A stretch of 64,000 nt of DNA, taken from Flavobacterium okayamense (lineage in GTDB: Bacteria; Bacteroidota; Bacteroidia; Flavobacteriales; Flavobacteriaceae). The first letter of the stretch is position 1, and each line of letters begins with the position of its first letter. Location: positions 744,001-808,000 of the forward strand of contig NZ_AP024749.1 in assembly GCF_019702945.1 (NCBI RefSeq), written 5' to 3'. Under the pieces are notes generated by a model. That model was not told the origin of the DNA and made no database searches. It saw only the letters and a list, made by a program, of their open reading frames with translations. Position numbers and translations under genes: made by a program. This document shows, piece by piece, positions 4,113 to 21,844 of the stretch.

Positions 4113-4130
4113 TCTTGTGTTTCTTTATTT

Positions 4131-4160
4131 GACTTATCGACTCCGCTCGAGGTGACAAAA
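4131..4160 (+). repeat. dispersed hairpin element, GACAAA-tail family (imperfect copy)
   Basis: The arrangement is G, a five-base arm ACTTA, the loop TCGACTCCGCTC, a five-base arm GAGGT and the tail GACAAAA. Four of five arm positions pair if one G-T wobble is allowed. The loop is identical to that of the copy inside gltX. The copy is intergenic, between mnmG and the methyltransferase. Confidence 0.7.
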
Positions 4161-4179
4161 TTTAGAATACTAATTACAA

Positions 4180-4195
4180 TGTTTCACGTGAAACA
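4180..4195. other. parS: parS-like site 1 (perfect palindrome)
   Basis: TGTTTCACGTGAAACA is a perfect 16-bp palindrome identical to the classical ParB-binding parS consensus. It lies between the mnmG stop and the methyltransferase start. ParB nucleates here to organise and segregate the origin region in many bacteria. Confidence 0.85.
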
Positions 4196-4234
4196 ATTTC
4201 TTTTCTCTTTATTCTTTTCTCTATTATCTAAAAC

Positions 4235-6112
4235 CTATCTACCCATATAAATTAATAAAACAGAAATATCGCTTGGAGAAACACCACTTATACGAGAAGC
4301 TTGAGCAATTGTTTTTGGACGGATTTTATTAAGTTTCTGTTTTGCTTCAATTGAAATAGATTTAATTTTATTAAAATCAAAACTATCTGGTATGATTACA
4401 TCTTCTAAACGTGTTAATTTATCTGCATGACTTTTTTCCTTCTCAATATAGCCTGAATATTTAACTTGAATTTCTGCCTGCTCAACAATTTCATCATCTA
4501 ACTGATGTTCTTCTACATAATCACGGAATTGCTTGAACTTCATAAAATCGTCAAGTTCTAATTGCGGACGGGAAAATACTTTAAACATTTTATCGGGTTG
4601 ACTCATTGGACTTGAACCTTTTTCTTCCAAAATAGGATTTGCATCAGCAGGTTTTACACTTGTCTCTTTAAAAAATTGAACAAAAGCTTCCGATTTACTT
4701 AACTTTTCTTCCATGCGATCCATACGATCTTGACTCGCTAAACCAATTGCATATCCTTTAGGTGTTAAGCGAATGTCGGCATTATCTTGTCGTAATAATG
4801 TTCTATATTCAGCACGAGAAGTAAACATACGATAAGGCTCTTCAGTTCCTTTCGTAATTAAGTCATCAATTAAAACTCCAATATATGCTTCATCTCTTTT
4901 TAAAATAAATGGATCTTGTTCTTTAACTTTTAACGCAGCATTAATTCCCGCCATCATTCCTTGAGAAGCAGCTTCTTCATAACCTGTAGTTCCATTTATT
5001 TGACCGGCAAAATATAAACCTTCAACTAACTTTGTTTCTAACGTATGTTTTAATTGTGTAGGTGGGAAGTAGTCATATTCAATAGCATAACCCGGACGGA
5101 AGAATTTTACATTCTCAAATCCAGGAACTGAACGTAAAGCTTTAAACTGAACATCTTCTGGTAACGATGTTGAAAATCCGTTTACGTAAATCTCTACAGT
5201 GTCCCAACCTTCCGGCTCAATAAATAATTGGTGTCTATCTTTATCTGCAAAACGATTAATCTTATCTTCAATCGACGGACAATATCTTGGACCAATACTT
5301 TTAATTCTTCCATTAAACATTGGACTACGATCGAAACCTTCACGAAGCAAATCGTGAACTTCTGGAGATGTATATGTCATCCAACACGAACGTTGTTTAG
5401 ATAATGGCTTCGTTACATTAGAATAGGAAAATTTATGTGGATTTACATCACCTGGTTGTTCCACCATTTTAGAATAATCTAAAGAACGCCCATCAACTCG
5501 TGGAGGCGTTCCAGTTTTCATTCTACCAGATTCGAAACCTAATTTTATTAAATCTTCTGTTATTCCGAAAGAAGCACTTTCACCTGCACGACCACCACCA
5601 AATTGTTTATCGCCAATATGAATTAATCCATTTAAAAAAGTTCCATTCGTAAGCACTACTGTCTTGCCTTTTATTTCAATTCCAAGTGAAGTTTTTACTC
5701 CAACAAGTTTTCCGTTTTCGGTTAAAATTCCCGAAACCATTTCTTGGTAAAAATCTAAATTTGGAGTTCCTTCTAACATCAAACGCCACTCTTCAGCAAA
5801 ACGCATACGATCACTTTGACAACGTGGCGACCACATTGCTGGACCTTTTGACATGTTCAACATTTTGAATTGAATGGCTGTTTTATCAGAAACAATTCCC
5901 GAATAACCACCAAGCGCATCAATCTCGCGAACGATTTGCCCTTTTGCAATTCCACCCATAGCAGGATTACAAGACATTTGTGCAATGTTTTGCAGATTCA
6001 TTGTAACCAACAGAGTTGAACAACCTAAATTTGCAGCAGCAGCAGCAGCTTCACAACCGGCATGTCCAGCGCCAACAACTATAACATCATATTGATCTTG
6101 AAATAAACTCAC
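4235..6112 (-). CDS. mnmG: tRNA uridine-5-carboxymethylaminomethyl synthesis enzyme MnmG (GidA)
   Basis: The 625-residue product matches the usual MnmG length. The FAD-binding loop GAGHAGCE is at residues 14-21, followed by the conserved [20 protein letters not shown] segment. The C-terminal helical domain ends [18 protein letters not shown]. With MnmE it installs the cmnm5 group on the wobble uridine of certain tRNAs, using FAD and folate, in the cytoplasm. The start codon is GTG at 6110-6112; no in-frame ATG fits the N-terminus. Three parS-like palindromes lie immediately upstream and one downstream. gidA often lies near the replication origin, which fits. Confidence 0.97.
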
Positions 6113-6141
6113 TTTATAAAAACTTAATTCTTATATTATAT

Positions 6142-6157
6142 AGTTCCACGTGGAACT
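6142..6157. other. parS: parS-like site 2
   Basis: AGTTCCACGTGGAACT is a perfect 16-bp palindrome with the CACGTG core of parS; only the outermost base pair departs from TGTTCCACGTGGAACA. It starts 30 bases upstream of the mnmG start codon. Confidence 0.75.
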
Positions 6158-6180
6158 TTTTATTTAAACAAAAACTTATT

Positions 6181-6196
6181 TGTTCCACGTGGAACA
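6181..6196. other. parS: parS-like site 3
   Basis: TGTTCCACGTGGAACA is a perfect 16-bp palindrome and a full match to the degenerate parS consensus TGTTNCACGTGNAACA. It starts 39 bases after the start of site 2. Confidence 0.85.
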
Positions 6197-6214
6197 AATA
6201 AAACAAAAAGATAT

Positions 6215-6634
6215 TTAATGTTTCACGTGGAACATCTTAATCTTTTCATCTTCTTTAGAGCGCATTAATTTTTCGTCACTATCAGATTTATCTTTATAAC
6301 CACAATAATGAAGGATGCCATGTATCATAACTCTTTTTAGTTCTTCAACAAATGGAACATCAAAATCTGACGCATTATCAACAACTCTTTCAATAGATAT
6401 AAAAATATCACCTTGTACTAAATTTCCTTCAGAATAATCAAAGCTTATTATATCAGTCAAAGTATCGTGATCTAAGTATTCTACATTGATTTTATATAGA
6501 TATTCGTCATCACAAAATATATAATTTACTTCACCTAAAATTTTATCTTCAGACAAAACAACATGTTCAATCCAAGTGGAAAAAATTTCTTCGTTCTCTA
6601 ATTGAAAATCTGATTCGTAATTATAAGTTATCAT
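6215..6634 (-). CDS. ybeY: rRNA maturation endoribonuclease YbeY
   Basis: The 139-residue product has the family signature at residues 105-115, HGILHYCGYKD. The usual third metal ligand His of HGxLHxxGYxH is replaced by Asp115, as I recall for other Bacteroidota YbeY. The zinc-dependent enzyme takes part in 16S rRNA 3'-end processing and ribosome quality control. The last six residues (MFHVKH) are encoded by parS-like site 4. The start codon overlaps the end of the upstream DUF4175 gene by 14 bases, so translation of the two is probably coupled. Confidence 0.95.
   Translation of the reverse strand: MITYNYESDFQLENEEIFSTWIEHVVLSEDKILGEVNYIFCDDEYLYKINVEYLDHDTLTDIISFDYSEGNLVQGDIFISIERVVDNASDFDVPFVEELKRVMIHGILHYCGYKDKSDSDEKLMRSKEDEKIKMFHVKH
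6219..6234. other. parS: parS-like site 4, overlapping the end of ybeY
   Basis: TGTTTCACGTGGAACA has one asymmetric position but matches the parS consensus. It starts 38 bases after site 3. It is read on the minus strand as the last residues of YbeY (MFHVKH), so the site is embedded in coding sequence. Confidence 0.8.
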
Positions 6635-9600
6635 TTGACTTAAAATATTCTTGAACTTTTTGATTATAATTGGGATGCAAAGGTAAGCTTTGTCTGTTTA
6701 ATATTTCTATACTATTCAAATAATCTTTTAATTGAGAAGGCAGAGGAGAAGAAGTGCCGTTAAAACTATCTTTATTTGTATTCGATTTACGCTTATTGTC
6801 TTCACCTTGTTGTTGGATTGCTTTTTCAAGTTTAAGCAACTCATGTTTTAAATTCATCATCTTATTTAAGGTCTCATTTTTAAAACCTTTGTTGATCAGT
6901 TGCTTTTCAATATCTTTCATTTGGTTCAAAGCATTTTGCCCAATACCGCCTAAACCTTCTTTTTTTAATTCTTTTTCTAAAGCATCTCTAAGTTGCTTTT
7001 GTTCTTTCAGAATATCGAGAATTTTTCCAGCATTTCCTTCTTGTCCATTTTCTCCTTCTGAACCACTTTGTCCAGATTGTCCAGGATTTTTTTCACCAGG
7101 CTTTTGTCCTTTTTGATCTCCATCTTGTTCTCCTGGTTGCATTCCTTTTTTCATTCCTTCACCTAATTCACCTTGCTTTTTTATAATATCTTTTAATTGC
7201 ATATCTCCTTGACCTCCTCCAGGTTTAGGTTTTCCTTGGCCCATTCCAGACATTTGCATTTGCATTTGTGATTGGACATTACTTAAGAAATCAGCAAGTT
7301 TGTTGGCAGAACTTAATGCAAATTGTTGATGCGAAGTTCCTTTATAAATATTATTTTCAGCAAGAACTTCAAGTGCTTTATCAATATTATAATGTACTTC
7401 ACCAACTTCTTTAAAAACTACTTCAGAAATCATAGGATTACGTAAAGCAACACTAAACAAACTATCATCAATGTGCTTGAACTGAACTTTTAAAGATTGT
7501 TGTTTTTTTAAAGCCTTATTAAACTGAAGATTTGTCTTTGAAGCTTCTTTAGTTTCTTTCATTAATTTCTCCTCGTCAAAAGAAAAGGTTAATAAATTAT
7601 CTACAATTTGTCGAAGTAATTGAGCATCTTCTTGCATCGTTTCCATACCCCCAGACATCATAGAAGCAGACATTTTTTCACCTATTTCCTTCATCTTTTC
7701 ACCAGCAGATTTTTGTTTAGGTGATGCTTTTTCTTTATTATTTTGTTCTAATTCTTCAGTGGCTTTATTTAAATCTTCTTCGATATTTTCTTGCTCTTTA
7801 TCATCAACATCCAAGTCCATTGGCCTTTTAAGACTTTCGTTTTCTTTATCCAATTGATTTAATTCTTCCTTAATATCCTCAAACTCTTTATTAATCTTTT
7901 CTTGATTTTCTTTAGAATTGTTTTGTTTATCATCTGCAAGTTTTTCTTGCTTATCACCAAGATTTTGTAATTTATCAGCTAATTGTTGTGCTTTTTGTTC
8001 CACATAGAAACGCTTAGTCAATTCAACTAATTGCTCCAAATTCATTTTTTGAGTTTTAGCATTTTGTTTTAACTTATCGGCTTTATCAAATAGTTCTTCT
8101 TTTTGAAGCTTTTTAGATAGCTCTTCTAATTCTTTAAGAAGCTCTTCATTCTTTTCAGACTCTTTTTGAAACTCCTCTAATCGTCTTTGAAGCTCTTCTT
8201 TTTGTTCGTTGTTTTCCGTTTTAAATTCTTCTAAATTCTCTTCTAAATTTTTAGAGAATTCTTTCATCAATTCTTCTTGTTTTTTTTGACGGTCGACAAA
8301 ATCTTGAATCTTCTTTTGATCTTTAAAATCTAAATTGGATTTTTCTTTATTCAACTTTTGAAGTTTATCCAATTCTGATAATTGTTTATCTTGATTTTGT
8401 AAAGACTTTTCAAGAGCATTGATATTTTCTTGCTGTTCTTGTAGTGTTTTATCTTCTTTTTCCGTTTGCGTTAACTCATAATAAGAAAAAATTGAAGATT
8501 TTGAAGATTTTGAACCATTAACTTGGTCATTATCAAACACTTCGAAGTAATAATCGTACTTTTTACCTTCTTCTAAACGTAAACCCGAAGGAAAAGTATA
8601 TACAAAACGGTCTACGAATTCAGTCTTAACGGGAAGATTAGCTCTTTTTAAAATTTCACGATTATTTACATCATAATAAACGACTTGTAGTTTCGAAAGA
8701 CCATAATCATCTGAAACATTTCCTATGATTACTTTTTCTTTTAACTTTAAACTATCTGGAGCAATTTGAGCAGAAATTGATGGAAATTGGTCTTTAATAG
8801 TTGTAATAGTATATCCTAACTTTTCATATTGCTTTACGGCACTATTGGAAGTTATAATTTGGTAATTAAAGTCAGAACGAATGCTTTTTGAAAAATTGAA
8901 TAATCCGTTAACATTTTTGAAATCATAACTATTCTCAGCTTTTAATTGAATTTCCTCAGTAGCTTTTGTAGCAATGTTCCACGTTATAAGAGTTCCTTCC
9001 GGTACAATAGCGTTTCCGTTACCTTTAATAGTTTCCGATGCCTTTCTTAAATATGATGGAAAAGTCAATCTCATTGAAAAATCAACAATTGTAGGAACAT
9101 TAACAACTTCTAAACTATAATTATTAGAAGTAATAGAGTTGGCTTCTAAATAAAAATCAGTAGAAGATTTTACACTTTCAAAAGTATATTCAAACTGACC
9201 ATTAGCATTTTTCTCTAAAAAATAACTTTCGTTATTAAAATGAATTTTAACTTGTTCAGGAACAACATTACCTTTCGTAGTAACTTTTAAAGTAAATGAT
9301 TTATTTTGTTCCACTTTTAAATCATCCGTTAGTAATTGAAAAGTAAATGGAGCAGGAGGCGCATATGCGGTTTCATAATGAACTACTCGATTTAAACTGT
9401 TTTCTAAAACCGAAGAATTTCCGGTAATATAAAACAAAACAAAAAGAAGAATAGGAATAATCGCAAATGGCAAATACTTTTTATTTCCTTTAAAATCTAT
9501 AGCATTTGAAAATGGAATGGGTTGTAAAGCATTTGCTTTTTGATCAATGGAAGCTATAAGTAGTTCCGATTGTTCATTAGTATTAGAAAGCTGAAGAAAA

Positions 9601-9929
9601 TTCAAAAGTTTGTCACCAACTTCAGAAAAATGATTGCCTATTATTTTAGAAGCATCAGTATAATCAATTCCTTTTTGAAGTTTAACTAATTTAAAAATTG
9701 GTAATACAATAAACTTCGCTAAAAGAAATAATTCAACAGAAATAAACAACCAAAACAAAATAGTTCTACCTAAAGTTGAAAGCCAAAGAAAATGTTCCAC
9801 GAGTAATGTGAATATGAAATACAACAAACCTAAACCTATAAAAAGTAGCAATCCTTTTACGACTTCATTGGTATAAAACTTTCTTATAAAAGCTTCAAGT
9901 TTGCTATATATAACTGATTTTGACTCCAA
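6621..9929 (-). CDS. DUF4175-family membrane-anchored protein, 1102 aa
   Basis: Three hydrophobic segments near residues 26-50, 57-80 and 152-168 anchor the N-terminus. A beta-rich, Ig-like region follows to about residue 500. Residues 500-770 are an extreme Glu/Lys/Gln coiled coil. A lower-complexity Gly/Gln/Pro/Lys stretch with many MQMQ and GQ repeats runs from about 900 to 1000, then a helical tail. This matches the DUF4175 proteins of Bacteroidetes, whose function is unknown. The start codon is a TTG at 9927-9929, since no nearby ATG fits the conserved N-terminus. It lies upstream of and overlaps ybeY. A role in envelope structure is inference only. Confidence 0.8.
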   Translation of the reverse strand: MESKSVIYSKLEAFIRKFYTNEVVKGLLLFIGLGLLYFIFTLLVEHFLWLSTLGRTILFWLFISVELFLLAKFIVLPIFKLVKLQKGIDYTDASKIIGNHFSEVGDKLLNFLQLSNTNEQSELLIASIDQKANALQPIPFSNAIDFKGNKKYLPFAIIPILLFVLFYITGNSSVLENSLNRVVHYETAYAPPAPFTFQLLTDDLKVEQNKSFTLKVTTKGNVVPEQVKIHFNNESYFLEKNANGQFEYTFESVKSSTDFYLEANSITSNNYSLEVVNVPTIVDFSMRLTFPSYLRKASETIKGNGNAIVPEGTLITWNIATKATEEIQLKAENSYDFKNVNGLFNFSKSIRSDFNYQIITSNSAVKQYEKLGYTITTIKDQFPSISAQIAPDSLKLKEKVIIGNVSDDYGLSKLQVVYYDVNNREILKRANLPVKTEFVDRFVYTFPSGLRLEEGKKYDYYFEVFDNDQVNGSKSSKSSIFSYYELTQTEKEDKTLQEQQENINALEKSLQNQDKQLSELDKLQKLNKEKSNLDFKDQKKIQDFVDRQKKQEELMKEFSKNLEENLEEFKTENNEQKEELQRRLEEFQKESEKNEELLKELEELSKKLQKEELFDKADKLKQNAKTQKMNLEQLVELTKRFYVEQKAQQLADKLQNLGDKQEKLADDKQNNSKENQEKINKEFEDIKEELNQLDKENESLKRPMDLDVDDKEQENIEEDLNKATEELEQNNKEKASPKQKSAGEKMKEIGEKMSASMMSGGMETMQEDAQLLRQIVDNLLTFSFDEEKLMKETKEASKTNLQFNKALKKQQSLKVQFKHIDDSLFSVALRNPMISEVVFKEVGEVHYNIDKALEVLAENNIYKGTSHQQFALSSANKLADFLSNVQSQMQMQMSGMGQGKPKPGGGQGDMQLKDIIKKQGELGEGMKKGMQPGEQDGDQKGQKPGEKNPGQSGQSGSEGENGQEGNAGKILDILKEQKQLRDALEKELKKEGLGGIGQNALNQMKDIEKQLINKGFKNETLNKMMNLKHELLKLEKAIQQQGEDNKRKSNTNKDSFNGTSSPLPSQLKDYLNSIEILNRQSLPLHPNYNQKVQEYFKSNDNL

Positions 9930-10061
9930 ATAACTTTAACTTTTGTTTATAACTGATAAAATTACAAATTTTTAATCCGCTAATTGTTAATAAAATTTCA
10001 AAATCTGTTAAATACGCTTTGATTTTCTAAATTCATAATTCACTCATCTAAATTCTAATTG

Positions 10062-10069
10062 TATCTTTG
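10062..10069 (+). promoter_or_regulatory. -7 promoter box for gltX
   Basis: TATCTTTG, followed by CA, is an exact TAnnTTTG box 51 bases before the preferred gltX ATG. The hairpin repeat at 10073-10099 begins four bases downstream, so it would form the very 5' end of the transcript. Confidence 0.65.
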
Positions 10070-10072
10070 CAT

Positions 10073-10099
10073 GATCCTTCGATAAGCTCAGGATGACAA
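10073..10099 (+). repeat. dispersed hairpin element, GACAAA-tail family, in the gltX leader
   Basis: The order is G, arm ATCCT, loop TCGATAAGCTC, arm AGGAT, tail GACAA. The five-base arms pair perfectly. An in-frame ATG (10093) lies inside this element, but it is unlikely to be the gltX start. Confidence 0.8.
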
Positions 10100-10119
10100 T
10101 AAGGAAAATATTTAAAATT

Positions 10120-11622
10120 ATGACTAAACCCGTTCGCGTTAGATTTGCGCCAAGTCCAACAGGACCATTACATATTGGTGGTGTTCGTACTGCTTTGTTC
10201 AATTATTTATTTGCTAAAAAACACGGAGGAACTTTTTACTTAAGAGTTGAAGATACCGATCAAACTCGTTTTGTTCCGGGTGCTGAAGCTTATATTTTTG
10301 AAGCTTTAGAATGGTTAGGAATTGCTCCAGATGAAACTGTAGGAAAAAATGAGAAATTTGGACCATACAGACAAAGCGAACGTAAAGAATTATACAAACA
10401 ATATGCTGACCAATTAGTTAATTCGGGTTGGGCGTATTATGCATTTGATACTGCCGAAGCTTTAGATGCGCATAGAAAGCAACACGAAGCCGAAGGAAAA
10501 ACATTTATTTATAATTGGCACAACCGCGAAAAATTAGATACCTCTTTAGTACAATCTAAAGAAGACGTAGAAAAAAGAATTGCTAATGGTGAACATTATG
10601 TCATTCGTTTTAAAACTCCTATAAATGAAACTTTAGAAATAAATGATATCATTCGTGGAACGGTTAAGTTTGAAACGAACTTATTAGACGATAAAGTTTT
10701 ATTTAAAAGTGATGGTATGCCAACCTATCATTTAGCAAATATTGTAGATGATCATTTAATGGAAACGTCTCACGTAATTCGTGGTGAAGAATGGTTACCA
10801 AGTTTACCTTTACACTTTTTGTTATACAAAGCATTTGGTTGGGAAGCACCAGAATTTGCTCATTTACCTTTAATCTTAAAACCAATAGGTAACGGAAAAT
10901 TATCGAAAAGAGATGGTGATAAAATGGGATTCCCTGTATTTCCTTTAGAATGGAAAACGGAAGAAGGAACTTCAATGGGTTATAGAGAACAAGGTTATTT
11001 TCCAGAAGCTGTAGTAAACTTTTTAGCTTTACTAGGTTGGAATGATGGAACCGATAAAGAATTATTTTCATTAGACGAATTAGTAGCTTCTTTTGATTTA
11101 AATAGAGTAAACAAATCGGGAGCGAAGTTTGATCCAGAGAAAAACAAATGGTTCAATCATCAGTATTTAATACAAAAATCTGATGAAGAATTGGCGGTTT
11201 TATTTAAAGTTGAATTGGATAAAAAAGACATCTCGACTCCGCTCGATGTGACAAAAATTGTAGGTTTAGTTAAAGAACGCGCCAACTTCGTAACTGATTT
11301 ATGGGATTTAGCGGATTATTTTTTTGTTGCACCAAGCAGTTATGATGAAAAAGTAACGAAAAAATGGAATGAAGAAACTAAAGAAACCTTAGCTAAAGTT
11401 GCTGAACAATTGAATGCTTATGCTGATTTTACATCACAAACTATTGAAGATAACTTAAAAGAGTGGATGACAGCAAACGAAATAGGAATGGGAAAAGTAA
11501 TGCAGCCACTCCGATTAAGTTTAGTAGGTGAGTTAAAAGGACCACACTTGTTTGACATTATTGAAATGCTTGGTAAAGAAGAAACCATTAAGCGTATTGA
11601 AAAAGCAATAGCAACAGTATAA
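10120..11622 (+). CDS. gltX: glutamyl-tRNA synthetase
   Basis: The product is 500 residues from the ATG at 10120. An ATG 27 bases upstream lies inside a hairpin repeat and adds nine unconserved residues, so I reject it. The class I HIGH motif is HIGG at 18-21, within FAPSPTGPLHIGGVRTALF. The KMSKS motif is KLSKR at 260-264. The enzyme charges tRNA-Glu with glutamate in the cytoplasm. Residues 370-379 (DISTPLDVTK) are encoded by a copy of the dispersed hairpin family, read in frame. It is the only long rightward gene between mnmG and the SPFH gene and ends at a bidirectional terminator. Confidence 0.97.
   Translation: MTKPVRVRFAPSPTGPLHIGGVRTALFNYLFAKKHGGTFYLRVEDTDQTRFVPGAEAYIFEALEWLGIAPDETVGKNEKFGPYRQSERKELYKQYADQLVNSGWAYYAFDTAEALDAHRKQHEAEGKTFIYNWHNREKLDTSLVQSKEDVEKRIANGEHYVIRFKTPINETLEINDIIRGTVKFETNLLDDKVLFKSDGMPTYHLANIVDDHLMETSHVIRGEEWLPSLPLHFLLYKAFGWEAPEFAHLPLILKPIGNGKLSKRDGDKMGFPVFPLEWKTEEGTSMGYREQGYFPEAVVNFLALLGWNDGTDKELFSLDELVASFDLNRVNKSGAKFDPEKNKWFNHQYLIQKSDEELAVLFKVELDKKDISTPLDVTKIVGLVKERANFVTDLWDLADYFFVAPSSYDEKVTKKWNEETKETLAKVAEQLNAYADFTSQTIEDNLKEWMTANEIGMGKVMQPLRLSLVGELKGPHLFDIIEMLGKEETIKRIEKAIATV
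11227..11255 (+). repeat. dispersed hairpin element inside the gltX coding sequence
   Basis: The order is G, arm ACATC, loop TCGACTCCGCTC, arm GATGT, tail GACAAA. The arms pair perfectly and the loop matches the 4131 copy. It is in frame and contributes residues 370-379 of GltX without a stop codon. Confidence 0.8.
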
Positions 11623-11627
11623 AAAAG

Positions 11628-11657
11628 AAAACCCTCAATAATGTTGAGGGTTTTTTT
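11628..11657. terminator. bidirectional terminator between gltX and the convergent outer-membrane protein gene
   Basis: CCCTCAA pairs with TTGAGGG around a TAATG loop, flanked by an A run on the left and an eight-T run on the right. It serves gltX on the plus strand and can serve the 11672-12319 gene on the minus strand. Confidence 0.88.
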
Positions 11658-11671
11658 TGATAAACACTATT

Positions 11672-12319
11672 TTACAAATATATAGTCAACATGGCGCTTA
11701 ACATACCAATATTTCCTCGAAATCGTTGGTTACCATTGGCAAGTTTTAATTCGTCTTTTTTATTTAAACTATTCATAATATTAGTAAAACCATATTGATA
11801 GTTAACATTTAAACGAAATCTAGTAACTCCTGCTGTAATTCCAGCCATAACATTTCCGCTAATTTGATTAATCTTTGTAATATCTTGTGCCATTAATCCT
11901 GGACTATCTTTAAGCAATAACAATTCGTCTGCTTCATCTAGCTTTAATTTACTATTAATCTGAAGTACTGGCCCAATTTCTAACGTTAAATGGTTTTCAA
12001 TTACCATATAACTTCCCACTAAGTATACTTGTACTGCAGAAAGTTTGTATTCGATATCTTTACCAGTTACAGATTGTAATGAAAAATTACTATCGGTAAA
12101 GTTCATACCATAAACCATTTGCCAATTGTTATAGTAATTTCCGCGTAACGATAAACCTCCTATCCAACCTTGACCAGGTTTCGCATTAAATTGATCAGAT
12201 AATAAATCTAAAGATGTAATACCTCCTGAAATTCCAATTCTATTGCTATCACGATAACCGTGTTGAGCGAAAGAAAAAGCACTTAATAAAACGATTAATA
12301 AAAGGGTTAATTTCTTCAT
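11672..12319 (-). CDS. outer-membrane beta-barrel protein
   Basis: The product is 215 residues. Residues 1-19 are a signal peptide (MKKLTLLLIVLLSAFSFAQ). The rest has alternating hydrophobic and polar strands with many Gly, Asn and aromatic residues (GISGG, GGLSLRGNYYNNWQMVYG, FRLNVNYQYGFTN), ending in a hydrophobic strand MLTIYL. This matches small barrels of the outer-membrane-beta-barrel or PorT-like type. Ligand and specific role are not readable. It converges on gltX and shares its terminator. It diverges from the SPFH gene, with a -7 box at 12339-12346. Confidence 0.75.
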   Translation of the reverse strand: MKKLTLLLIVLLSAFSFAQHGYRDSNRIGISGGITSLDLLSDQFNAKPGQGWIGGLSLRGNYYNNWQMVYGMNFTDSNFSLQSVTGKDIEYKLSAVQVYLVGSYMVIENHLTLEIGPVLQINSKLKLDEADELLLLKDSPGLMAQDITKINQISGNVMAGITAGVTRFRLNVNYQYGFTNIMNSLNKKDELKLANGNQRFRGNIGMLSAMLTIYL

Positions 12320-12338
12320 TACAATAATTTTAGGGTGG

Positions 12339-12346
12339 CAAATGTA
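12339..12346 (-). promoter_or_regulatory. -7 promoter box for the outer-membrane beta-barrel gene
   Basis: On the minus strand this reads TACATTTG, an exact TAnnTTTG box 20 bases upstream of the start codon. Confidence 0.6.
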
Positions 12347-12424
12347 AGGTTATCTACAATAAATATGTAACTTTTTGTAAAAAAAAGCGTATAATCTATA
12401 TAACCAATCAAATAATATACAACT

Positions 12425-13390
12425 ATGGGGTATTATATCATTTTAGTCATCGGACTATTTATTTTTTTAAGTTCTTTTTTTACTGTTAAACAACAAACAT
12501 CTGTAATAATAGAACGCTTCGGAAGGTTTAATAGTATACGCAATTCTGGATTACAATTAAAAATTCCAGTAATTGATAGAATTGCAGGTCGTGTTAATTT
12601 ACGAATTCAACAATTAGATGTTATCATTGAAACTAAAACTAAAGATAACGTATTCGTTAAATTGAAAGTTTCAGTTCAGTTTAAAGTATTACAAGACAAG
12701 GTTTACGAAGCTTTTTATAAATTAGAGTATCCACACGATCAAATTACTTCGTACGTATTTGACGTTGTTCGTGCAGAAGTTCCAAAACTAAAATTGGACG
12801 ACGTTTTTGAAAGAAAAGATGATATTGCAGTAGCAGTTAAAAGAGAATTAAATGATGCAATGTCTACTTACGGATACGATATCATAAATACATTAATTAC
12901 TGATATTGATCCTGATATTCAAGTAAAAAATGCAATGAACCGTATTAATGCTGCTGATAGAGAAAAAACAGCTGCAGAATATGAAGCAGAAGCAGGAAGA
13001 ATTAGAATTGTTGCAAAAGCAAAAGCAGAAGCAGAAAGCAAAAGATTACAAGGACAAGGTATTGCTGATCAACGTAGAGAAATTGCTCGTGGGCTTGTAG
13101 AAAGTGTTGATGTATTAAATAGAGTTGGAATTAATTCTCAAGAAGCATCGGCTTTAATTGTAGTTACACAACACTATGATACATTACAAGCAATTGGTGC
13201 TGATACGAATTCGAATTTAATTTTATTACCGAATTCACCTCAAGCTGGAAGTGAAATGTTAAATAACATGGTAGCTAGTTTTACAGCTAGTAACCAAGTA
13301 GGTGAAGCGATGAAAAAAGCAAATAGCCAAGCAAGAATTAAATCGAATAAAAAAGATGAATTTGGTGGAACAGCCGATTCTGAAGAATAA
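12425..13390 (+). CDS. SPFH/Band 7 (stomatin-like) membrane protein
   Basis: The 321-residue product starts with one N-terminal transmembrane segment (residues 2-20). The SPFH/Band 7 domain spans about residues 20-200, with the familiar QQTSVIIERFGRFN opening and INAADREKTAAEYEAEAGRI before the heptad-rich AKAKAEAESKRLQGQG helix. The C-terminal tail is polar. Stomatin-like proteins form oligomeric membrane scaffolds and often regulate membrane proteases; no protease partner gene is adjacent here. It is followed by a hairpin element and a terminator. Confidence 0.92.
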   Translation: MGYYIILVIGLFIFLSSFFTVKQQTSVIIERFGRFNSIRNSGLQLKIPVIDRIAGRVNLRIQQLDVIIETKTKDNVFVKLKVSVQFKVLQDKVYEAFYKLEYPHDQITSYVFDVVRAEVPKLKLDDVFERKDDIAVAVKRELNDAMSTYGYDIINTLITDIDPDIQVKNAMNRINAADREKTAAEYEAEAGRIRIVAKAKAEAESKRLQGQGIADQRREIARGLVESVDVLNRVGINSQEASALIVVTQHYDTLQAIGADTNSNLILLPNSPQAGSEMLNNMVASFTASNQVGEAMKKANSQARIKSNKKDEFGGTADSEE

Positions 13391-13399
13391 AAATTATTA

Positions 13400-13428
13400 G
13401 ATGCTGAAGCAAAGTTCAGCATGACAAA
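13400..13428 (+). repeat. dispersed hairpin element, GACAAA-tail family, after the SPFH gene
   Basis: The order is G, arm ATGCTGAA, loop GCAAAG, arm TTCAGCAT, tail GACAAA. The eight-base stem is perfect and is the longest among the copies here. It starts nine bases after the SPFH stop. Confidence 0.8.
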
Positions 13429-13433
13429 ATAGT

Positions 13434-13467
13434 AAATCCATCAATTTAAAATTGGTGGATTTTTTTA
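13434..13467 (+). terminator. Rho-independent terminator after the SPFH gene
   Basis: AAATCCATCAAT pairs with ATTGGTGGATTT (one G-T pair) around a TTAAA loop, followed by a run of Ts. Confidence 0.85.
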
Positions 13468-13747
13468 TTTATATACAAAAACTATAGATTAAAAAAATTA
13501 AATAGTTTTTAGTAATTAAATTATGTTTTTTTAAGTAAAACGTAAAATAAACGCTTTAAAGTAACTTTTAAGTCATCATACTTAAAACCATATTAGCTAA
13601 TTTTAAAAAGGTTTTAAAATAAAAATATGAAAGCCGTTTTTTAAAGTAAAAATTTATAAAAAACATTATTTTAATAATAAATATTTATTATTTACTAAAA
13701 CAATGATTTATAAAATTAGTATCAAAATAAATAATTATAAAATTTAG
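13468..13747. other. AT-rich gene-free stretch
   Basis: About 280 bases made almost entirely of A and T, with scattered AAAGTAA and TTTAAAG words. There is no open frame worth reporting on either strand and no recognisable RNA gene. It may be spacer, or remnants of earlier repeat insertions next to the hairpin elements on both sides. Confidence 0.5.
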
Positions 13748-13767
13748 ATTCTTACAGAATGACAAAT
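13748..13767 (+). repeat. dispersed hairpin element, GACAAA-tail family, short copy
   Basis: The order is G, arm ATTCT, loop TAC, arm AGAAT, tail GACAAA. The stem is a perfect five pairs. It faces a minus-strand copy at 13805-13824. Confidence 0.75.
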
Positions 13768-13793
13768 TTTATAATTCTCTTTAAATTTTAAAA

Positions 13794-13839
13794 AAAAAGT
13801 ATAGTTTGTCATTTTGTAAAAATCTAAACTATACTTTTT
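13794..13839 (-). terminator. long-loop hairpin, probable terminator of glnS
   Basis: A perfect 14-bp stem AAAAAGTATAGTTT (13794-13807) pairs with 13826-13839 across an 18-base loop. On the minus strand, the direction of glnS, it is followed by a run of Ts from the A-rich stretch at 13786-13798. Most of the minus-strand hairpin element lies in its loop. Confidence 0.55.
13805..13824 (-). repeat. dispersed hairpin element, GACAAA-tail family, minus-strand copy
   Basis: On the minus strand the order is G, arm ATTTT, loop TAC, arm AAAAT, tail GACAAA. It has the same layout and loop as the 13748 copy but different, still complementary, arms. Confidence 0.75.
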
Positions 13840-13842
13840 AAA

Positions 13843-13870
13843 GACACTTCGACAAGCTCAGTGTGACAAT
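13843..13870 (+). repeat. dispersed hairpin element, GACAAA-tail family, after glnS
   Basis: The order is G, arm ACACT, loop TCGACAAGCTC, arm AGTGT, tail GACAAT. The arms pair perfectly. It lies 16 bases from the glnS stop codon. Confidence 0.8.
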
Positions 13871-13885
13871 TTTATTTTATAATAA

Positions 13886-15568
13886 TTACTTTTCGCTAAC
13901 CTTTGCCCAAGTATCTCTTAAACCAACCGTTTTATTGAAAACTAATTTTTCAGCAGTTGAATCTCTATCTACACAAAAATATCCTAAACGTTGAAACTGA
14001 AAATGATCTAATTCTTTAGATTCAGTTAAACTAGGTTCAACATAACCCGTAATAATTTCAAGAGAATTAGGATTGATAAACTCTTTAAAATCAACTTCTT
14101 TATTTCCATCTGGATTTTCATGTGTAAACAAACGATCATACACACGAACTTCTGCTTCTTTTGCATGTGGAATAGAAACCCAATGAATTGTTCCTTTAAC
14201 TTTACGCTTACTAGCTTCAGTACCACTTCCAGATTTAGAATCTACATCATATGAACAATGAATTTCGGTAATATTTCCGTTTTCATCTTTTACAACTGAT
14301 TCACCTTTAATGATATACGCGTTTTTCAAACGAACTTCTGTGCCTAGTGTTAATCGGAAGAATTTCTTGTGTGCTTCTTCTTGAAAATCTTCTCTTTCAA
14401 TATATAATTCCTTAGAAAAAGGAACTTGACGATATGTCATTACTTCTTCTTCTGGATTATTTTCGGCTTCTAACCATTCTTCTTTCCCTTCAGGATAATT
14501 AGTAATTACTAATTTAACCGGATTTAGAACTGCCATTACACGAGGTGCAATTTTGTTCAAATCTTCACGTACACAGAATTCTAAAAGCGAAACATCGATT
14601 AAGTTTGAGCGTTTTGCAATACCAATAGTTTTAGCAAAATTACGTATGGAAGCGGGTGTATAACCTCTTCTTCTCATACCCGAAATTGTACTCATACGAG
14701 GATCATCCCAACCTGTAACATGCTTTTCTTCAACTAATTGTAATAATTTACGTTTCGAAACTACAGTATGCGATAAATTTCTACGCGCAAACTCACGTTG
14801 TTTTGGTCTTACTTTAGAAGTATCGTAAATATTATCTAAAAACCAATCGTATAATTCTCGATGTGGTAAAAACTCAAGAGTACATAAAGAGTGTGAAACT
14901 TGTTCTAAATAATCACTTTCTCCATGTGCCCAATCGTACATTGGATAAATACACCAATCGTTACCTGTTCTATGATGATACGCATGCATAATACGATACA
15001 TAATAGGATCGCGCATTAACATATTAGTAGAAGCCATATCTATTTTAGCACGTAAAACGTAACTTCCGTTAGGAAATTCTCCGTTTTTCATACGTTCAAA
15101 TAAATCTAAATTCTCTTCTATAGAACGATTTCTATTTGGGCTATCTGTTCCAGGTTGTGTAGGCGTACCTTTTTGTTTCGCCATTTCTTCTGAAGACTGA
15201 TTGTCTACATACGCTTTACCTTTCTTAATTAATTCAACTGCCCAATCGTATAATTGTTGGAAATAATCTGAAGCAAAACATTCAGTATCCCATTGAAAAC
15301 CTAACCATTCTACATCGCGCTTAATAGCATCAACGTATTCTTGTTCTTCTTTTGATGGGTTTGTATCGTCGAAACGTAAGTTTACAGGTGCATTATAATC
15401 TATTCCTAGGCCAAAATTTAAACATATGGCACTCGCATGACCAACATGCAAATATCCATTTGGTTCTGGTGGAAATCGGAAACGTAATTTATCTTTTGAC
15501 AAACCATTTTTTAAATCTTCTTCAATGATTTGTTCTATAAAATTCAATGATTTTTCTTCAGTAGACAT
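13886..15568 (-). CDS. glnS: glutaminyl-tRNA synthetase
   Basis: The product has 560 residues. The class I HIGH motif is HVGH at residues 41-44, within [26 protein letters not shown]-type loop (VVSKRKLL) lies near residue 270, and the GlnRS-type anticodon-binding beta domains fill the C-terminal half. It charges tRNA-Gln directly, so with gltX in the same window glutamine charging need not use the transamidation route. The gene is monocistronic, with a -7 box about 20 bases upstream of its start. Its 3' side is crowded with hairpin elements. Confidence 0.97.
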
Positions 15569-15588
15569 TGTTTTTCTATCTTTTATGC

Positions 15589-15596
15589 AAAGATAG
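15589..15596 (-). promoter_or_regulatory. -7 promoter box for glnS
   Basis: The plus strand shows CAAAGATA, i.e. TATCTTTG on the minus strand, an exact TAnnTTTG box about 20 bases upstream of the glnS ATG. Coordinates may be off by one base. Confidence 0.6.
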
Positions 15597-15711
15597 AAAA
15601 TGTTTCAAGTTTCAAGTTGTTTAAAAGTTGAAAAAACTGAGTAAATTTGATAATTAAATAATGTGGTTGAAGTCAAAAAGAAAATTAACTTGAAACCTTA
15701 AACAAAAAATT

Positions 15712-16071
15712 ATGGGAACTATAAAATTAAATAACATACGCACCTATTCATATCATGGTTGTTTATTAGAAGAAGGAAAAATAGGTAGTGATTACAGTGT
15801 TGATTTAGAAATAAAGACGGATTTGCGTAAATCGGCTGAGACAGATGATTTGCATGATACGGTAGATTATGTAGATTTAAATAGAATTGTTGTAGAAGAA
15901 ATGGCTATAAGAGCCCATTTATTAGAACATGTTGCCCATAGAATTATTACTAGAATTTTTGCGGAATTACCACAAGTTTCAAGGATTAAAGTAGCGGTTG
16001 CTAAGTTGAATCCGCCAATTGGTGGCGATGTAGAAAGCGTAACAATTGAAATGGAAGAGTTTAGAAACTAG
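15712..16071 (+). CDS. folB: dihydroneopterin aldolase
   Basis: The 119-residue product has the usual FolB length. It shows the N-terminal strand IKLNNIRTYSYHGCLLEE (the YHG signature). DDLHDTVDYVDLNRIV and LLEHVAHRIITRIFAELP also match the family, and the C-terminal strand VAKLNPPIGGDVESVTIEM carries the conserved proline pair. The enzyme converts 7,8-dihydroneopterin to 6-hydroxymethyl-dihydropterin plus glycolaldehyde in folate synthesis. It lies upstream of tRNA-Cys on the same strand with no terminator visible between, though the tRNA has its own -7 box. Confidence 0.94.
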   Translation: MGTIKLNNIRTYSYHGCLLEEGKIGSDYSVDLEIKTDLRKSAETDDLHDTVDYVDLNRIVVEEMAIRAHLLEHVAHRIITRIFAELPQVSRIKVAVAKLNPPIGGDVESVTIEMEEFRN

Positions 16072-16146
16072 TTTTTTAATGTTCAGTAATTAGTTGGCAG
16101 TTAAAATATTATAATATTATGATTTAAAAAAATATAACGAACTGTT

Positions 16147-16184
16147 AACTTTTAAACTTTAAACTTTCAAACTTTAAACTTTTT
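16147..16184 (+). repeat. short AACTTT-type direct repeats upstream of tRNA-Cys
   Basis: Five near-copies of a (A)AACTTT unit spaced seven to eight bases apart (AACTTTT, AAACTTT, AAACTTT, CAAACTTT, AAACTTT). A similar word is tandemly repeated before rfbA. It lies directly upstream of the tRNA promoter box; I see no other function. Confidence 0.6.
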
Positions 16185-16187
16185 ATA

Positions 16188-16195
16188 TACATTTG
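16188..16195 (+). promoter_or_regulatory. -7 promoter box for tRNA-Cys
   Basis: TACATTTG followed by CA matches TAnnTTTG and lies 17 bases before the mature tRNA 5' end. Confidence 0.65.
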
Positions 16196-16212
16196 CAGTC
16201 CGTTCAAGTAAT

Positions 16213-16283
16213 GGCGTCGTGGCCGAGCGGCTAGGCAGCGGTCTGCAAAACCGTCTACCCCGGTTCGAATCCGGGCGATGCCT
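16213..16283 (+). tRNA. tRNA-Cys (GCA)
   Basis: A 71-base cloverleaf. The acceptor arms GGCGTCG and CGATGCC pair (one G-T). The anticodon loop CTGCAAA has the GCA anticodon at 16245-16247. The T-arm has the standard GGTTCGAATCC. The discriminator is T (U73), as expected for cysteine tRNA. The 3' CCA is not encoded. It has its own -7 box and is followed four bases later by a terminator. Confidence 0.97.
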
Positions 16284-16286
16284 CTT

Positions 16287-16317
16287 AAACCTTCTAAGAA
16301 ATTAGGAGGTTTTTTTT
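16287..16317. terminator. terminator after tRNA-Cys, shared with the convergent gene
   Basis: AAACCTTCTAA pairs with TTAGGAGGTTT (one T-G pair) around a four-base GAAA loop, followed by a long T run. The minus-strand gene at 16320 ends three bases beyond it, so it may serve both directions. Confidence 0.82.
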
Positions 16318-16319
16318 AT

Positions 16320-16952
16320 TTAATCAACTAATTTAATTAATAAAGGTTCTATTTTTCTATAATCAACATTTGGAGGTTGCTTAAATTTAATATTATTAAT
16401 AATTATAAAAGAATTCTTTTTAGCTTTCAATATTAAATCTAAAGCTTCTTTATTAATTTTATTTCCTTCTATATAAATTACTTTTTTCTTATAACTTACA
16501 CTAAAAGAGGTAATTTCTCTTGCATTATATTCAAGGTAAAAATCAGGAATTTTTAATCTAATTGTAGCATCTTTAAAATTATCTTTAAATAAAACCAAAA
16601 TTCCATTTGTTGAGTATTCATCATTAATTGTGGCAATGGGAAAAGGAATTCCTTTAATCCTAAACTCATGTTCTTCAAAAACTACAGTATCATCAATTTT
16701 AGTAATTTCTACATATACTTTTGTAGTTAAACCAGTGCCTGGAGATAAAAAATAATTTCCGTTTTCATCTTTACTAACTCCTTTTCCATAAACTTTATAC
16801 GATTTTGCATCGTTTACCGCTAAAGAAATAGGATTAGCTATTCCACGATACACCACATTCATTTTATCTAAAGCAATTACACTTTTTGTTGCCGGAATGG
16901 TATCTTGAGCGTAAATAGAAAATGAAAATAAAAGGAATATGATGTATTTCAT
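16320..16952 (-). CDS. secreted protein resembling the GldM C-terminal domain
   Basis: The 210-residue product begins with a signal peptide (MKYIIFLLFSFSIYAQ). Residues 22-45, SVIALDKMNVVYRGIANPIS, closely resemble the repeated domain at the C-terminus of GldM, a core gliding and type IX secretion protein, where a KMNVVYRG-NP segment opens each beta-sandwich domain. The rest fits one or two such domains. Full GldM is about 500 residues with an N-terminal membrane helix, so this is a stand-alone domain, not GldM itself. No other gld genes are nearby. The family call is from memory and moderately sure; any link to secretion is inference. Confidence 0.6.
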   Translation of the reverse strand: MKYIIFLLFSFSIYAQDTIPATKSVIALDKMNVVYRGIANPISLAVNDAKSYKVYGKGVSKDENGNYFLSPGTGLTTKVYVEITKIDDTVVFEEHEFRIKGIPFPIATINDEYSTNGILVLFKDNFKDATIRLKIPDFYLEYNAREITSFSVSYKKKVIYIEGNKINKEALDLILKAKKNSFIIINNIKFKQPPNVDYRKIEPLLIKLVD

Positions 16953-16969
16953 TTTAATATAGATTATGA

Positions 16970-17007
16970 GACATCTCCTCTCGAGATGACATGCTCGATG
17001 TGAAAAA
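16970..17007 (+). repeat. degenerate or composite hairpin element between two genes
   Basis: G and arm ACATC (16971-16975) pair with GATGT (16997-17001), which is followed by GAAAAA instead of GACAAA. Inside the loop is a second hairpin, CATCTC with GAGATG, followed by ACA. It looks like two overlapping or partly decayed family members. Confidence 0.5.
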
Positions 17008-18504: not shown

Positions 18505-20682
18505 TTATTCTTTTTTGCGAATGTACCAAAAATCTAGTTGTTTTTTAACTAAATCGGCATTTTTAACTTTAACGTATACTTCGTCTCCTAATTGTATAAT
18601 ATTCTTTGAAACTTCACCTACTAATGCATATTGTGTTTCATCAAAAACATAATAATCGTCTTTAATTTCACGAATACGGCACATTCCTTCACATTTATTT
18701 TCAATAATTTCAACATAAATCCCCCATTCGGTAACACCTGAAATTACACCTAAAAATTCTTGATCTTTATGATCTTGCATGTATTTCACTTGCATGTATT
18801 TCACAGAATCTCTTTCGGCATTAGCTGCTAAATTTTCCATTTGTGAAGAATGCTTACATTTTTCTTCGTAATCTTCTTCGCTTACACTTTTTCCACCATC
18901 TAAATAATGCTGTAACAAACGATGTGCCATAACATCGGGGTAACGACGAATAGGTGACGTAAAGTGACTGTAATAATCAAAAGCTAACCCGTAATGACCA
19001 ATATTATGAGTTGAATATTCGGCTTTACTCATGGTACGAATAGCTAAAGTATCAACCATGTTTTGTTCTTTTTTACCTACTACATCTTCTAATAACGTAT
19101 TTAAAGATTTAGAAATAGTTTCTTTTGATTTAAAGTTTAAAGAATAACCAAATTTCTTGATCAAATTTTGTAATCCCATTAACTTATCTTCATTTGGTTC
19201 GTCATGAATACGATACACAAATGTTTTCTTTTGTTTACCTATAAATTCCGCAACTTTTCGATTGGCTAAAAGCATGAATTCTTCAATTAGATGATTGGCA
19301 TCTTTACTTTGTTTAAAGTAAACACCTGTTGGTTCTGCATTTTCATTTAAATGAAATTTAACTTCCACTTTATCGAATGATATAGCGCCATTAGCCATTC
19401 TTTTTTGGCGTAAAATTTTAGCTAATTCATCCATTTTAAGTGTAGCCTCGACTATTTCTTGTGGCGCTTGATATTCTTTTCCTGTTAAAGAAACTTCAGC
19501 TGGAATTAAACTCGTTTTACTTTCAATTATAGCTTGAGCTTCTTCGTAAGCAAATCGTTGATCGCTATAAATTACCGTTCTACCAAACCAAGAATTTAAA
19601 ACTTCTGCTTTTTGATTTAATTGGAAAACTGCAGAAAATGTATATTTTTCTTCATGAGGTCGCAATGAACACGCAAAATTTGACAATACTTCTGGAAGCA
19701 TTGGAACTACTCTATCTACTAAATAAACAGAAGTTGCTCTATTATAAGCTTCATCATCTAAAATTGTTCCTTCTTTTACATAATGGGAAACATCGGCAAT
19801 GTGAATTCCTATTTCGTAATTTCCATTATCTAAAACTTCAAAAGACAAAGCATCATCAAAATCTTTGGCATCTTTTGGATCTATAGTAAACGTTAAAACA
19901 TCACGCATATCGCGACGGTTTAAAATTTCTTCTTCAGTTATTGAAGTATCTAATTTTTTAGCATACGTTTCTACTTCAATAGGAAAATCATATGGTAAAC
20001 CATATTCGGCAAGAATCGCATGAATTTCAGTATTGTGTTCGCCTGGTTTTCCTAAAACTTTAATAACACTACCAAATGGAGAATCGGCTTTTTTAGGCCA
20101 ATCTTCCATTTTTACTAAAACAACATCGCCGTGTTCTGCATCTCCTATTTTATTTTTTGGAATAAAAATATCGGTATACATTTTAGCATTTGCAGTGGTT
20201 ACAAATGCAAAATTCTTTTGTACATCGATTACTCCTACAAATTCTTCTTTTTTACGTTCTAAAATTTCTAAAACTTCTGCTTCTGGTCGGCGAGAACTTC
20301 TTCTATTATATATATACGCTTTAACTTTGTCGCCGTCTAAAGCATGATTTAAATTTATAAATGGAACAAATACATCTTCTTCTAATTCGTCACAAACAAA
20401 ATAACCTGTTTTACGTGAAGTCATGTCTATATAACCTTCATAATATTCGGCTTTAGAAACCATTTGGTATTTACCACGATCGGTTTCATGAATTTTATCT
20501 TGAGCTTTTAATAGTTTTAAATCGCGAATAATTTCGTTGCGACTTTTAGTATCTGTTAACTCTAATTGAGCTGCAATTTGTTTATAGTTAAACGATTTTG
20601 AAGGTTCTTTTGCTAAAATTTTAAAAATTTGATTGGTAAAATCTTTTGCTTTTTTACCAAATTTTTTTGGTTTCTTACTCAT
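18505..20682 (-). CDS. rnr: ribonuclease R
   Basis: The product is 725 residues, the normal RNase R length. An N-terminal winged-helix region (about 10-75) and cold-shock domains precede the RNB nuclease domain. The metal-binding motif DPKDAKDFDDA is at residues 268-278. A C-terminal S1 domain starts near residue 640 (FLGVISGVTEWGIYVEI). The enzyme degrades structured RNA 3' to 5' and takes part in RNA turnover and stress responses. The upstream region is the 624-base gene-free, DnaA-box-like stretch, so rnr is the first leftward gene from the candidate origin. Confidence 0.96.
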   Translation of the reverse strand: MSKKPKKFGKKAKDFTNQIFKILAKEPSKSFNYKQIAAQLELTDTKSRNEIIRDLKLLKAQDKIHETDRGKYQMVSKAEYYEGYIDMTSRKTGYFVCDELEEDVFVPFINLNHALDGDKVKAYIYNRRSSRRPEAEVLEILERKKEEFVGVIDVQKNFAFVTTANAKMYTDIFIPKNKIGDAEHGDVVLVKMEDWPKKADSPFGSVIKVLGKPGEHNTEIHAILAEYGLPYDFPIEVETYAKKLDTSITEEEILNRRDMRDVLTFTIDPKDAKDFDDALSFEVLDNGNYEIGIHIADVSHYVKEGTILDDEAYNRATSVYLVDRVVPMLPEVLSNFACSLRPHEEKYTFSAVFQLNQKAEVLNSWFGRTVIYSDQRFAYEEAQAIIESKTSLIPAEVSLTGKEYQAPQEIVEATLKMDELAKILRQKRMANGAISFDKVEVKFHLNENAEPTGVYFKQSKDANHLIEEFMLLANRKVAEFIGKQKKTFVYRIHDEPNEDKLMGLQNLIKKFGYSLNFKSKETISKSLNTLLEDVVGKKEQNMVDTLAIRTMSKAEYSTHNIGHYGLAFDYYSHFTSPIRRYPDVMAHRLLQHYLDGGKSVSEEDYEEKCKHSSQMENLAANAERDSVKYMQVKYMQDHKDQEFLGVISGVTEWGIYVEIIENKCEGMCRIREIKDDYYVFDETQYALVGEVSKNIIQLGDEVYVKVKNADLVKKQLDFWYIRKKE

Positions 20683-21306
20683 TATATCTTTTTCAATTTT
20701 TGTTAAAATTACAAATAAGAAAATAGAAATAAGAAAATAGCGATTAGAATTAATAAAAAAGTAACAGTTTAAAAAGAAGAGTTTTCAACATTTATTAAAA
20801 ACAACAAAAAAAAGATTTTTTAAAAATTTAATTTTTTGGTTATGATTATAGCTTGTTAATATGTAGAATAACTTTTTTTAGAAGTTTTGGAATTTGAAGT
20901 TTTACATTTTTATAAAATTCTATTAACAACCTATTTTAAATATAAGAACTTGATTTTAAACTCATTTTTCATCTTTTGAATTTACTTATTAACAACTGTT
21001 GAAATCTACTTTACATACTTTTTTGTAGAAAACTTCATTTGTTAAAAACTGTTAATAAGACTGAAATATAGTTTTAAAACTTCACCATAAAAAAGTAAAA
21101 ATTTTACTTGATTTATCCAATCTAATTTTTGCTTATAAAATTTTAGTTATGATTTTGAAAAACTTCTTCTTTTCTATCTAAATTTATTAACAATTGTTGT
21201 TAATTTAAATTTAACTGATTATCAATGATTTATAAAAAAGAATTAACATAATAAAATTTTATCGTTGAATGTTTAAATAAATCGTTGATTTTAAATAAAA
21301 TAGTTG
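20683..21306. other. oriC: gene-free AT-rich region with repeated DnaA-box-like 9-mers; candidate replication origin
   Basis: There is no gene in 624 very AT-rich bases. The 9-mer TTATTAACA occurs exactly at 20986-20994 (+), 21050-21058 (-) and 21184-21192 (+). Close relatives fitting TTWTYAACA or one change from it lie at 20782 (+, TTTTCAACA), 20854 (-), 20920 (+), 20997 (-), 21040 (-, TTTTTAACA) and 21198 (-). TTATCCAAT at 21113 is close to the standard DnaA box TTATCCACA. Genes run mainly left on its left side and, after two more leftward genes, right on its right side. The origin call is inference; dnaA is not present nearby. Confidence 0.45.
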
Positions 21307-21831: not shown

Positions 21832-21844
21832 ACTATTAAACAAA

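Follow-up and report, generated by a model that had tools for sequence, protein, structure and literature searches.

A genome-wide family of short TGTC-tagged hairpins with covarying arms in Flavobacterium okayamense

A 64,000-nt stretch of Flavobacterium okayamense contig NZ_AP024749.1 (the window, to whose positions coordinates refer unless a genome position is given) carries copies of a short hairpin family whose arms differ from copy to copy and still pair, next to a common GACAA tail. These hairpins are real and genome-wide, with about 50 copies in the F. okayamense genome. They are probably mobile palindromes of about 27 nt of the repetitive extragenic palindromic (REP) type, served by a structure-reading enzyme acting in trans, with arms that drift while staying paired. 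A sequence-only reading had listed eight places in the window, all of which we read directly. Its dispersed copies are confirmed, seven of the eight showing the order arm, loop, arm, GACAA and the eighth (16970) being decayed. The GACAAA tail it described as fixed proved so only up to GACAA, since the copies at 10074 and 13844 end in GACAAT.

The hairpin-plus-GACA layout is by itself no evidence, because the window contains 16 perfect hairpins (arms of at least 5 nt, loop of 4–22 nt) followed by GACA against a shuffle mean of 14.8; this chance-level count comes from a scan that misses the copy at 4131 and both copies with a 3-nt loop. The significance of the family rests on loop, arms and tail taken together across the genome. 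The loop-plus-tail pattern TCGACWNNGCTCNNNNTGACA has 41 matches with at most one mismatch (33 exact, 8 with one) in the 2,781,077-base chromosome, and the TTCGAYAAGCTCAG type has six with at most two mismatches; the control found none in either case, the pattern being reversed in the former. The genome-wide covariance-model search that the sequence-only reading had proposed returned, with our model R1, at least 47 copies at E ≤ 0.01 and at least 63 at E ≤ 10; R1 scored 150 of 411 first-look candidates in this genome, and weak copies may be missed.

The consensus of about 27 nt consists of AG, a 5-nt arm, TC, GA, a loop of 5–6 nt, TC, the complementary arm and GACAA, which on the opposite strand reads as a bulged hairpin preceded on its 5′ side by an unpaired TGTC tag. 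We aligned 36 copies (alignment A1), namely the 30 of 41 TCGACWNNGCTCNNNNTGACA matches with loci and all six of the TTCGAYAAGCTCAG type. GACA (TGTC) is present in all 36, though the search patterns favoured it, and is followed by A in 30 and by a second A in 24. Three of the eight one-mismatch TCGACWNNGCTCNNNNTGACA matches deviate within the tag, one of them reading TGACG (CGTC). The supposedly fixed 5′ flank is merely a preference for AG (G in 20/36, A in 20/36). Beyond F. okayamense, model matches occur in 27 of 60 genomes in a search of relatives and, in a Bacteroidota survey, in 38 of 198 genomes and 22 of 102 genera (own included in both), and two closed genomes, G198 and G174, hold 111 and 148 matches at E ≤ 0.02. 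One relative carries a dense both-strand array of matches over about 1.8 kb (G029:C1:254096-255840).

Twenty arm combinations occur in the 36 aligned copies, while the loop is identical in 24. The 180 stem cells comprise 164 Watson–Crick pairs, 5 G-T pairs and 11 unpaired cells; 93.9% of cells in the 5-bp stem are paired (66.7% after shuffling), double-change cells number 49 (12.3 shuffled), and the covariation score is 0.80, as opposed to at most 0.09 for slid registers. Because the search patterns put no condition on the 5′ arm, this pairing was not imposed on the copy set. Among 17 orthologous copies (15 distinct) in the glutamate–tRNA ligase gene gltX, 97.3% of cells are paired, with 14 double-change cells against 5.4 shuffled. 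The earlier claim that arm differences preserve pairing therefore holds both genome-wide and at a single orthologous site, and within the window the arms are generally complementary, the imperfect pair at 4131 (ACTTA/GAGGT) excepted. Arm positions are not equally free: the inner pair is C-G (26/36) or T-A (9/36), the next is T-A (28/36) or C-G (8/36), and the outer is A-T in 24/36. The two middle pairs take all four Watson–Crick types and the remaining pairs two or fewer. The inner GA/TC step beside the 2-nt bulge is near-invariant, with the same pairs in 71 of 72 cells and one G-T. The covariation is thus real, but the selection on the folded form that had been read from it is only one possible cause, template switching being another.

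Evidence for mobility comes from sites with and without the element. The dihydroorotate dehydrogenase gene pyrD was found in 145 of 150 genomes of the genus, own included. We aligned it with 49 relatives (29 best-ranked and 20 picked, 16 of these for longer matches): its loop is empty in 40, carries unrelated short inserts in four and holds other hairpin-type sequences in five, clear in L192 and L197 and partial in L194, L195 and L196, at neighbouring, not identical, positions. Clean empty sites were demonstrated for pyrD alone among the in-gene copies. Because so many pyrD loops are empty, and because the GltX and PyrD loops carry other subtypes elsewhere, we infer that the elements insert. 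Most copies are single; the six pairs less than 150 bp apart among the 63 own-genome matches, where about 0.2 pairs are expected, are all tail-out with 2–9 bp spacing, as are 12 of 13 pairs over three genomes (among the matches listed). Covariation had been offered as an argument against copying, but these elements resemble mobile repeats: they are scattered, occur in some species and not in others, and are arranged in head-to-head pairs.

The gltX gene (10093..11622, plus strand; TIGR00464) hosts an A-type element at 11225..11255 (plus; arms ACATC/GATGT; 50.5 bits), read in frame as the peptide DISTPLDVTK. At this loop, model matches at E ≤ 5 occur in 28 of 80 relatives, 15 at E ≤ 0.01 (of 58 matches in 1.49 Mb). 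The occupants are of several kinds, an STPLEVT frame, an SFDSAQ frame, CDFSFVEMTK and GDSFTAFGMTK/GDSSFVGMTK, and the hairpins of relatives use more than one reading frame and more than one loop type. A gltX tree computed with the loop omitted requires no fewer than 17 presence/absence changes and 23 type changes, rough counts in that types were scored by eye, 10 remnants were counted as present and branches are partly weakly supported. In the closest contig, L069, the in-gene hairpin is missing and its position is taken by a different stretch that is longer by one codon. L069 does retain a second copy, the gltX leader hairpin, with identical arms (25 of 26 positions identical, versus 39 of 60 upstream columns; hand count). 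This leader copy is a B-type element at 10071..10100 (plus; loop TCGATAAGCTC; arms ATCCT/AGGAT; 32.4 bits) immediately 5′ of gltX; the listed start of the open reading frame (ORF) falls inside it, and the true start is probably near 10120. Directly 5′ of the leader copy, at 10060-10075, is a TATCTTTG box, which we take to be the Bacteroidetes -7 motif; box and hairpin are conserved in L069. Because the box directly precedes the hairpin, the gltX transcript may start there.

Fourteen of the 36 aligned copies lie within ORFs of at least 80 aa (one in a possibly spurious 112-aa ORF), 5 sense and 9 antisense by hand count, and by eye they use four of the six frames (VTSSGVE, LSVRAESR, STPLDVT, LLDSARSD). 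Hosts are gltX, argS, leuS, hisA, pyrD and genes for methylmalonyl-CoA mutase, YdiU/SelO, a KDO transferase, a family-2 glycosyltransferase, a GSCFA protein, a radical SAM protein, EPSP synthase (aroA) and a radical SAM protein related to HemN. Compared with solved structures, HisA is longer by 6 residues at the element in all three printed alignments, one of two alignments of the HemN-like protein shows a gap of 10 residues there, and AroA carries its element between or at the edge of aligned blocks; ArgRS shows no consistent insert at the element. The new aspect here is that copies lie within genes, essential enzyme genes included, apparently without breaking their hosts; a literature search, with most subscription journals beyond reach, turned up, among the records listed, no report of repeats of this sort within genes of Flavobacterium. 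In L020, a radical SAM gene encodes two family-like in-frame peptides, VTSSGVEMS and VCSSGVDNS, slightly more than 200 residues apart.

The window copies belong to more than one subfamily: those at 13400 and 13748/13805 are rare subtypes and atypical members. An unfiltered covariance-model scan recovered all eight listed places, four strongly (11225, 4129, 13841 and 10071; 50.5 to 32.4 bits) and four weakly (13805 minus, 13745, 13398 and 16968; E 0.036 to 1.2). Because an unlisted place, at 61317 on the minus strand (15.4 bits, E 0.33), scores above both 13398 and 16968, score does not distinguish these two. Besides the gltX copies, the plus strand carries an intergenic A-type element at 4129..4159 (loop TCGACTCCGCTC; imperfect arms; tail GACAAA; 43.0 bits), a B-type element at 13841..13870 (arms ACACT/AGTGT; 39.2 bits) and a decayed or partly duplicated A-type element at 16968..17007 (outer ACATC/GATGT, inner GAGATGACA; 12.7 bits). 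The C-type element (13398..13428, plus; arms ATGCTGAA/TTCAGCAT; 13.6 bits) has an 8-bp stem directly 3′ of the stop of an HflK-like gene and, with its loop fixed at 6 nt (13401), matches only itself within 3 mismatches in the genome.

Two short hairpins with a TAC loop complete the set. Hairpin D (13745..13766, plus; ATTCT/AGAAT and GACAAA; 18.8 bits) sits within a further perfect outer stem of 13 bp, and hairpin E (13805..13826, minus; ATTTT/AAAAT and GACAAA; 20.1 bits), the head-to-head partner of the 13841 copy, within a 14-bp outer stem followed by a T run, by eye terminator-like for glnS. D and E (13733-13780 and 13790-13846) share the core TTTAGATTYTTACARAATGACAAA, yet their perfect outer stems differ. 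Flank pairing beyond the stem holds for these two only and was rejected as a general feature (3.1 vs 3.5 pairs of 10 over 36 copies). This type has two zero-mismatch matches in the genome, both inside the window, and a large TAC-loop subfamily was rejected, looser matches being near control (34 vs 24). Rfam at gathering scores found nothing in the window except one tRNA.

In the F. okayamense genome, all 14 matches at E ≤ 0.01 between 0 and 0.76 Mb are on the plus strand, and element strand follows replication strand in 37 of 47 copies (hand count; permutation p 0.0004), with the origin at about 0.76 Mb and the terminus at about 2.0 Mb by gene-corrected GC skew. This suggests lagging-strand insertion, from one genome only. 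In G198 there is no strand bias (32/56, hand count, among the matches listed, 56 of 111), and G174, with 65 of 148 matches used, has no usable skew; a general rule of replication-strand bias was accordingly rejected. Within the window, GC skew changes sign at about 20000–28000 (genome position about 0.765 Mb), and by the gene-corrected skew the origin falls inside the window or close to it. As dnaA is at 515 of the record, origin and dnaA seem to be about 0.75 Mb apart. Sites matching TGTTNCACGTGNAACA, presumably the ParB parS consensus, cluster around mnmG (4180-4195, 6181-6196, 6219-6234 and, with 2 mismatches, 6142-6157), and with 2 mismatches allowed the window holds five matches where 0.21 are expected; the A-type copy at 4129 is about 20 bp from such a site.

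The sequence-only reading knew of no named family with this behaviour, but Di Nocera et al. 2013 describe REP subfamilies with alternative complementary stem residues (PMC3733652). The CGTC-tagged REP superfamily, as presented there, is widespread, partly intragenic and without a dedicated transposase, includes Neisseria dRS3 and R. conorii RPE-4 and RPE-6, and counts G. forsetii as CGTC-positive. Its units have an 8–9 bp stem with A-T almost always in the first and second position, a 4–5 nt loop and, at the other end, a short unpaired tail, mostly CCA; TGTC and CCTC are stated tag variants and head-to-head dimers predominate (PMC3733652). Measured against that description, our hairpins share the unpaired terminal tag in its TGTC variant, subsets with different stems, head-to-head pairs (all six close pairs, though most copies are single), intragenic units (14/36) and the lack of an associated transposase (no PF01797 match; other families not searched). 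They differ in having five continuous pairs (seven with the 2-nt bulge) instead of 8–9 bp, the lone C-type copy reaching 8 bp; a first pair that is A-T in 24/36 and a second that is mostly C-G (19/36); and an AG/CT preference at the other end instead of CCA. The loop counts 11–12 nt, or 5–6 nt if the GA/TC step pairs, next to the 4–5 nt described there. We therefore place the Flavobacterium family outside the four families of the superfamily, whose stem and tail definitions it does not fit. It works like CGTC/TGTC-tagged REPs, is not nameless in kind, and is a new variant by stem and tail. We take G. forsetii to be Gramella forsetii, of the Flavobacteriaceae.

Other known repeats resemble the family in part. 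Like Rickettsia palindromic elements, it places palindromic DNA in frame within many unrelated protein genes, but at about 27 nt in Flavobacterium versus about 150 bp as given in PMC10969869, a comparison by description, not sequence. With GTAG REPs and REPINs and their RAYT (TnpA-REP) enzymes it shares a tag with an imperfect palindrome, inverted pairs and dispersal; it differs in its TGTC tag, the lack of a Y1 transposase match in the genome and the eight Y1 loci of relatives without a model match. The ends of IS200/IS605 elements likewise have subterminal hairpins, whereas here there is no IS body, and strand bias appears in one of the two genomes where it is assessable. For IS200/IS605, use of the lagging-strand template is documented for two members (PMC6006769); PMC12306157 tabulates predicted REPs for two Flavobacterium species.

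If the family is mobile in the manner we favour, a structure-specific nuclease or transposase would act in trans on single-stranded DNA, reading the tag, the near-invariant GA/TC step with the loop, and whether the arms pair, whatever their middle bases. The arms would then be free to drift as long as they pair, and in-gene inserts would survive only where the frame is kept and the loop is tolerant. A structure-reading single-strand nuclease would be expected to leave such traces: a tag, a hairpin, inverted pairs, and arms that are free yet paired. The folded A- and B-type hairpins show no unusual stability (-1.8 kcal/mol for DNA, z 0.1 to 0.4), so that a constraint on them would need a protein that reads hairpins. 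The search for an associated transposase gave no match to Y1 (PF01797) in the genome, other transposase families not being searched; the mover would then have been lost, be supplied from outside or be of another type. As a tentative proposal, a non-Y1 enzyme may move the single-strand palindrome and repeatedly rewrite the same surface loops of essential enzymes. Across Flavobacterium, at least four hairpin subtypes would then have entered, left or re-entered the gltX loop, in some cases by replacing a stretch of equal length, and the middle arm bases could vary provided that they pair.

Several results weigh against movement of this kind. Plain insertion in gltX is not borne out, the element replacing a stretch of roughly equal length relative to most homologs. 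Two of five covariation measures in A1 are not above shuffles (double-change pairs 4 vs 3.8; further pair types 10 vs 11.0), and the shuffles ignore the relatedness of copies. In five of the six tail-out pairs a partner scores worse than E 0.01, and D and E are arranged tail-in, although the 63 matches do not include D. The absence of strand bias in G198 and of any transposase linked to the elements (among Y1 enzymes) belongs here too, as do the eight Y1 loci of relatives without a model match. Element copy number also grows with genome size (rho 0.46), and elements are present in 13 of 16 same-genus genomes with strong Y1 genes versus 10 of 21 without (Fisher p 0.048, rank p 0.058).

This slight association bears on the best surviving alternative, possible although we think it unlikely, that the hairpins belong to an ordinary REP/RAYT system whose Y1 transposase was lost, the elements being left over from a TnpA-REP-like enzyme. 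Of 37 same-genus genomes, own included, 16 have a strong Y1 gene (E ≤ 1e-20, our own cut), and both the arrangement of tag and hairpin and the strand bias in the F. okayamense genome agree with single-strand transposition. Yet genomes rich in elements (G029 with 49 matches, G000 with 46, G004 with 24) have no PF01797 match at E ≤ 0.001, no repeated hairpin is evident in six of the eight Y1 loci, one locus (L160) having a nearby TGACA hairpin, the tag is TGTC and not GTAG, and the bias is not repeated in G198.

Less likely again is arm covariation without selection, through template switching inside the hairpin that copies one arm onto the other. The scarcity of G-T intermediates (5 of 180 cells), a stability no greater than that of shuffles and the roughly equal-length replacement in gltX agree with it, but the unequal freedom of arm positions does not, and G-T cells do exist (L084 in gltX). 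An RNA-level element (stability, processing or a 5′-leader hairpin) kept by selection at each site is improbable: the near-identity of the 10074 leader copy in L069 would suit it, whereas the occurrence of both orientations relative to genes, the few G-U pairs and the weak fold speak against it. Ordinary intrinsic terminators, named earlier as the competing account, are contradicted for the family, as none of the eight places is among eight terminator-like window sites (the scan demands 3 G-C pairs) and 14 of 36 copies lie inside ORFs, leaving by eye one of eight, E (13805 minus), in a long stem with a T run.

As a system the family is compact: many species have been sequenced, occupied sites can be told clearly from empty ones, and arm bases vary freely beside a fixed tag, bulge and loop. 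These features open the rules of recognition, and the hunt for the enzyme, to direct tests. That the same GltX and PyrD loops have been colonised repeatedly suggests that, outside Rickettsia too, short mobile DNA can time and again provide essential proteins with new peptide segments.

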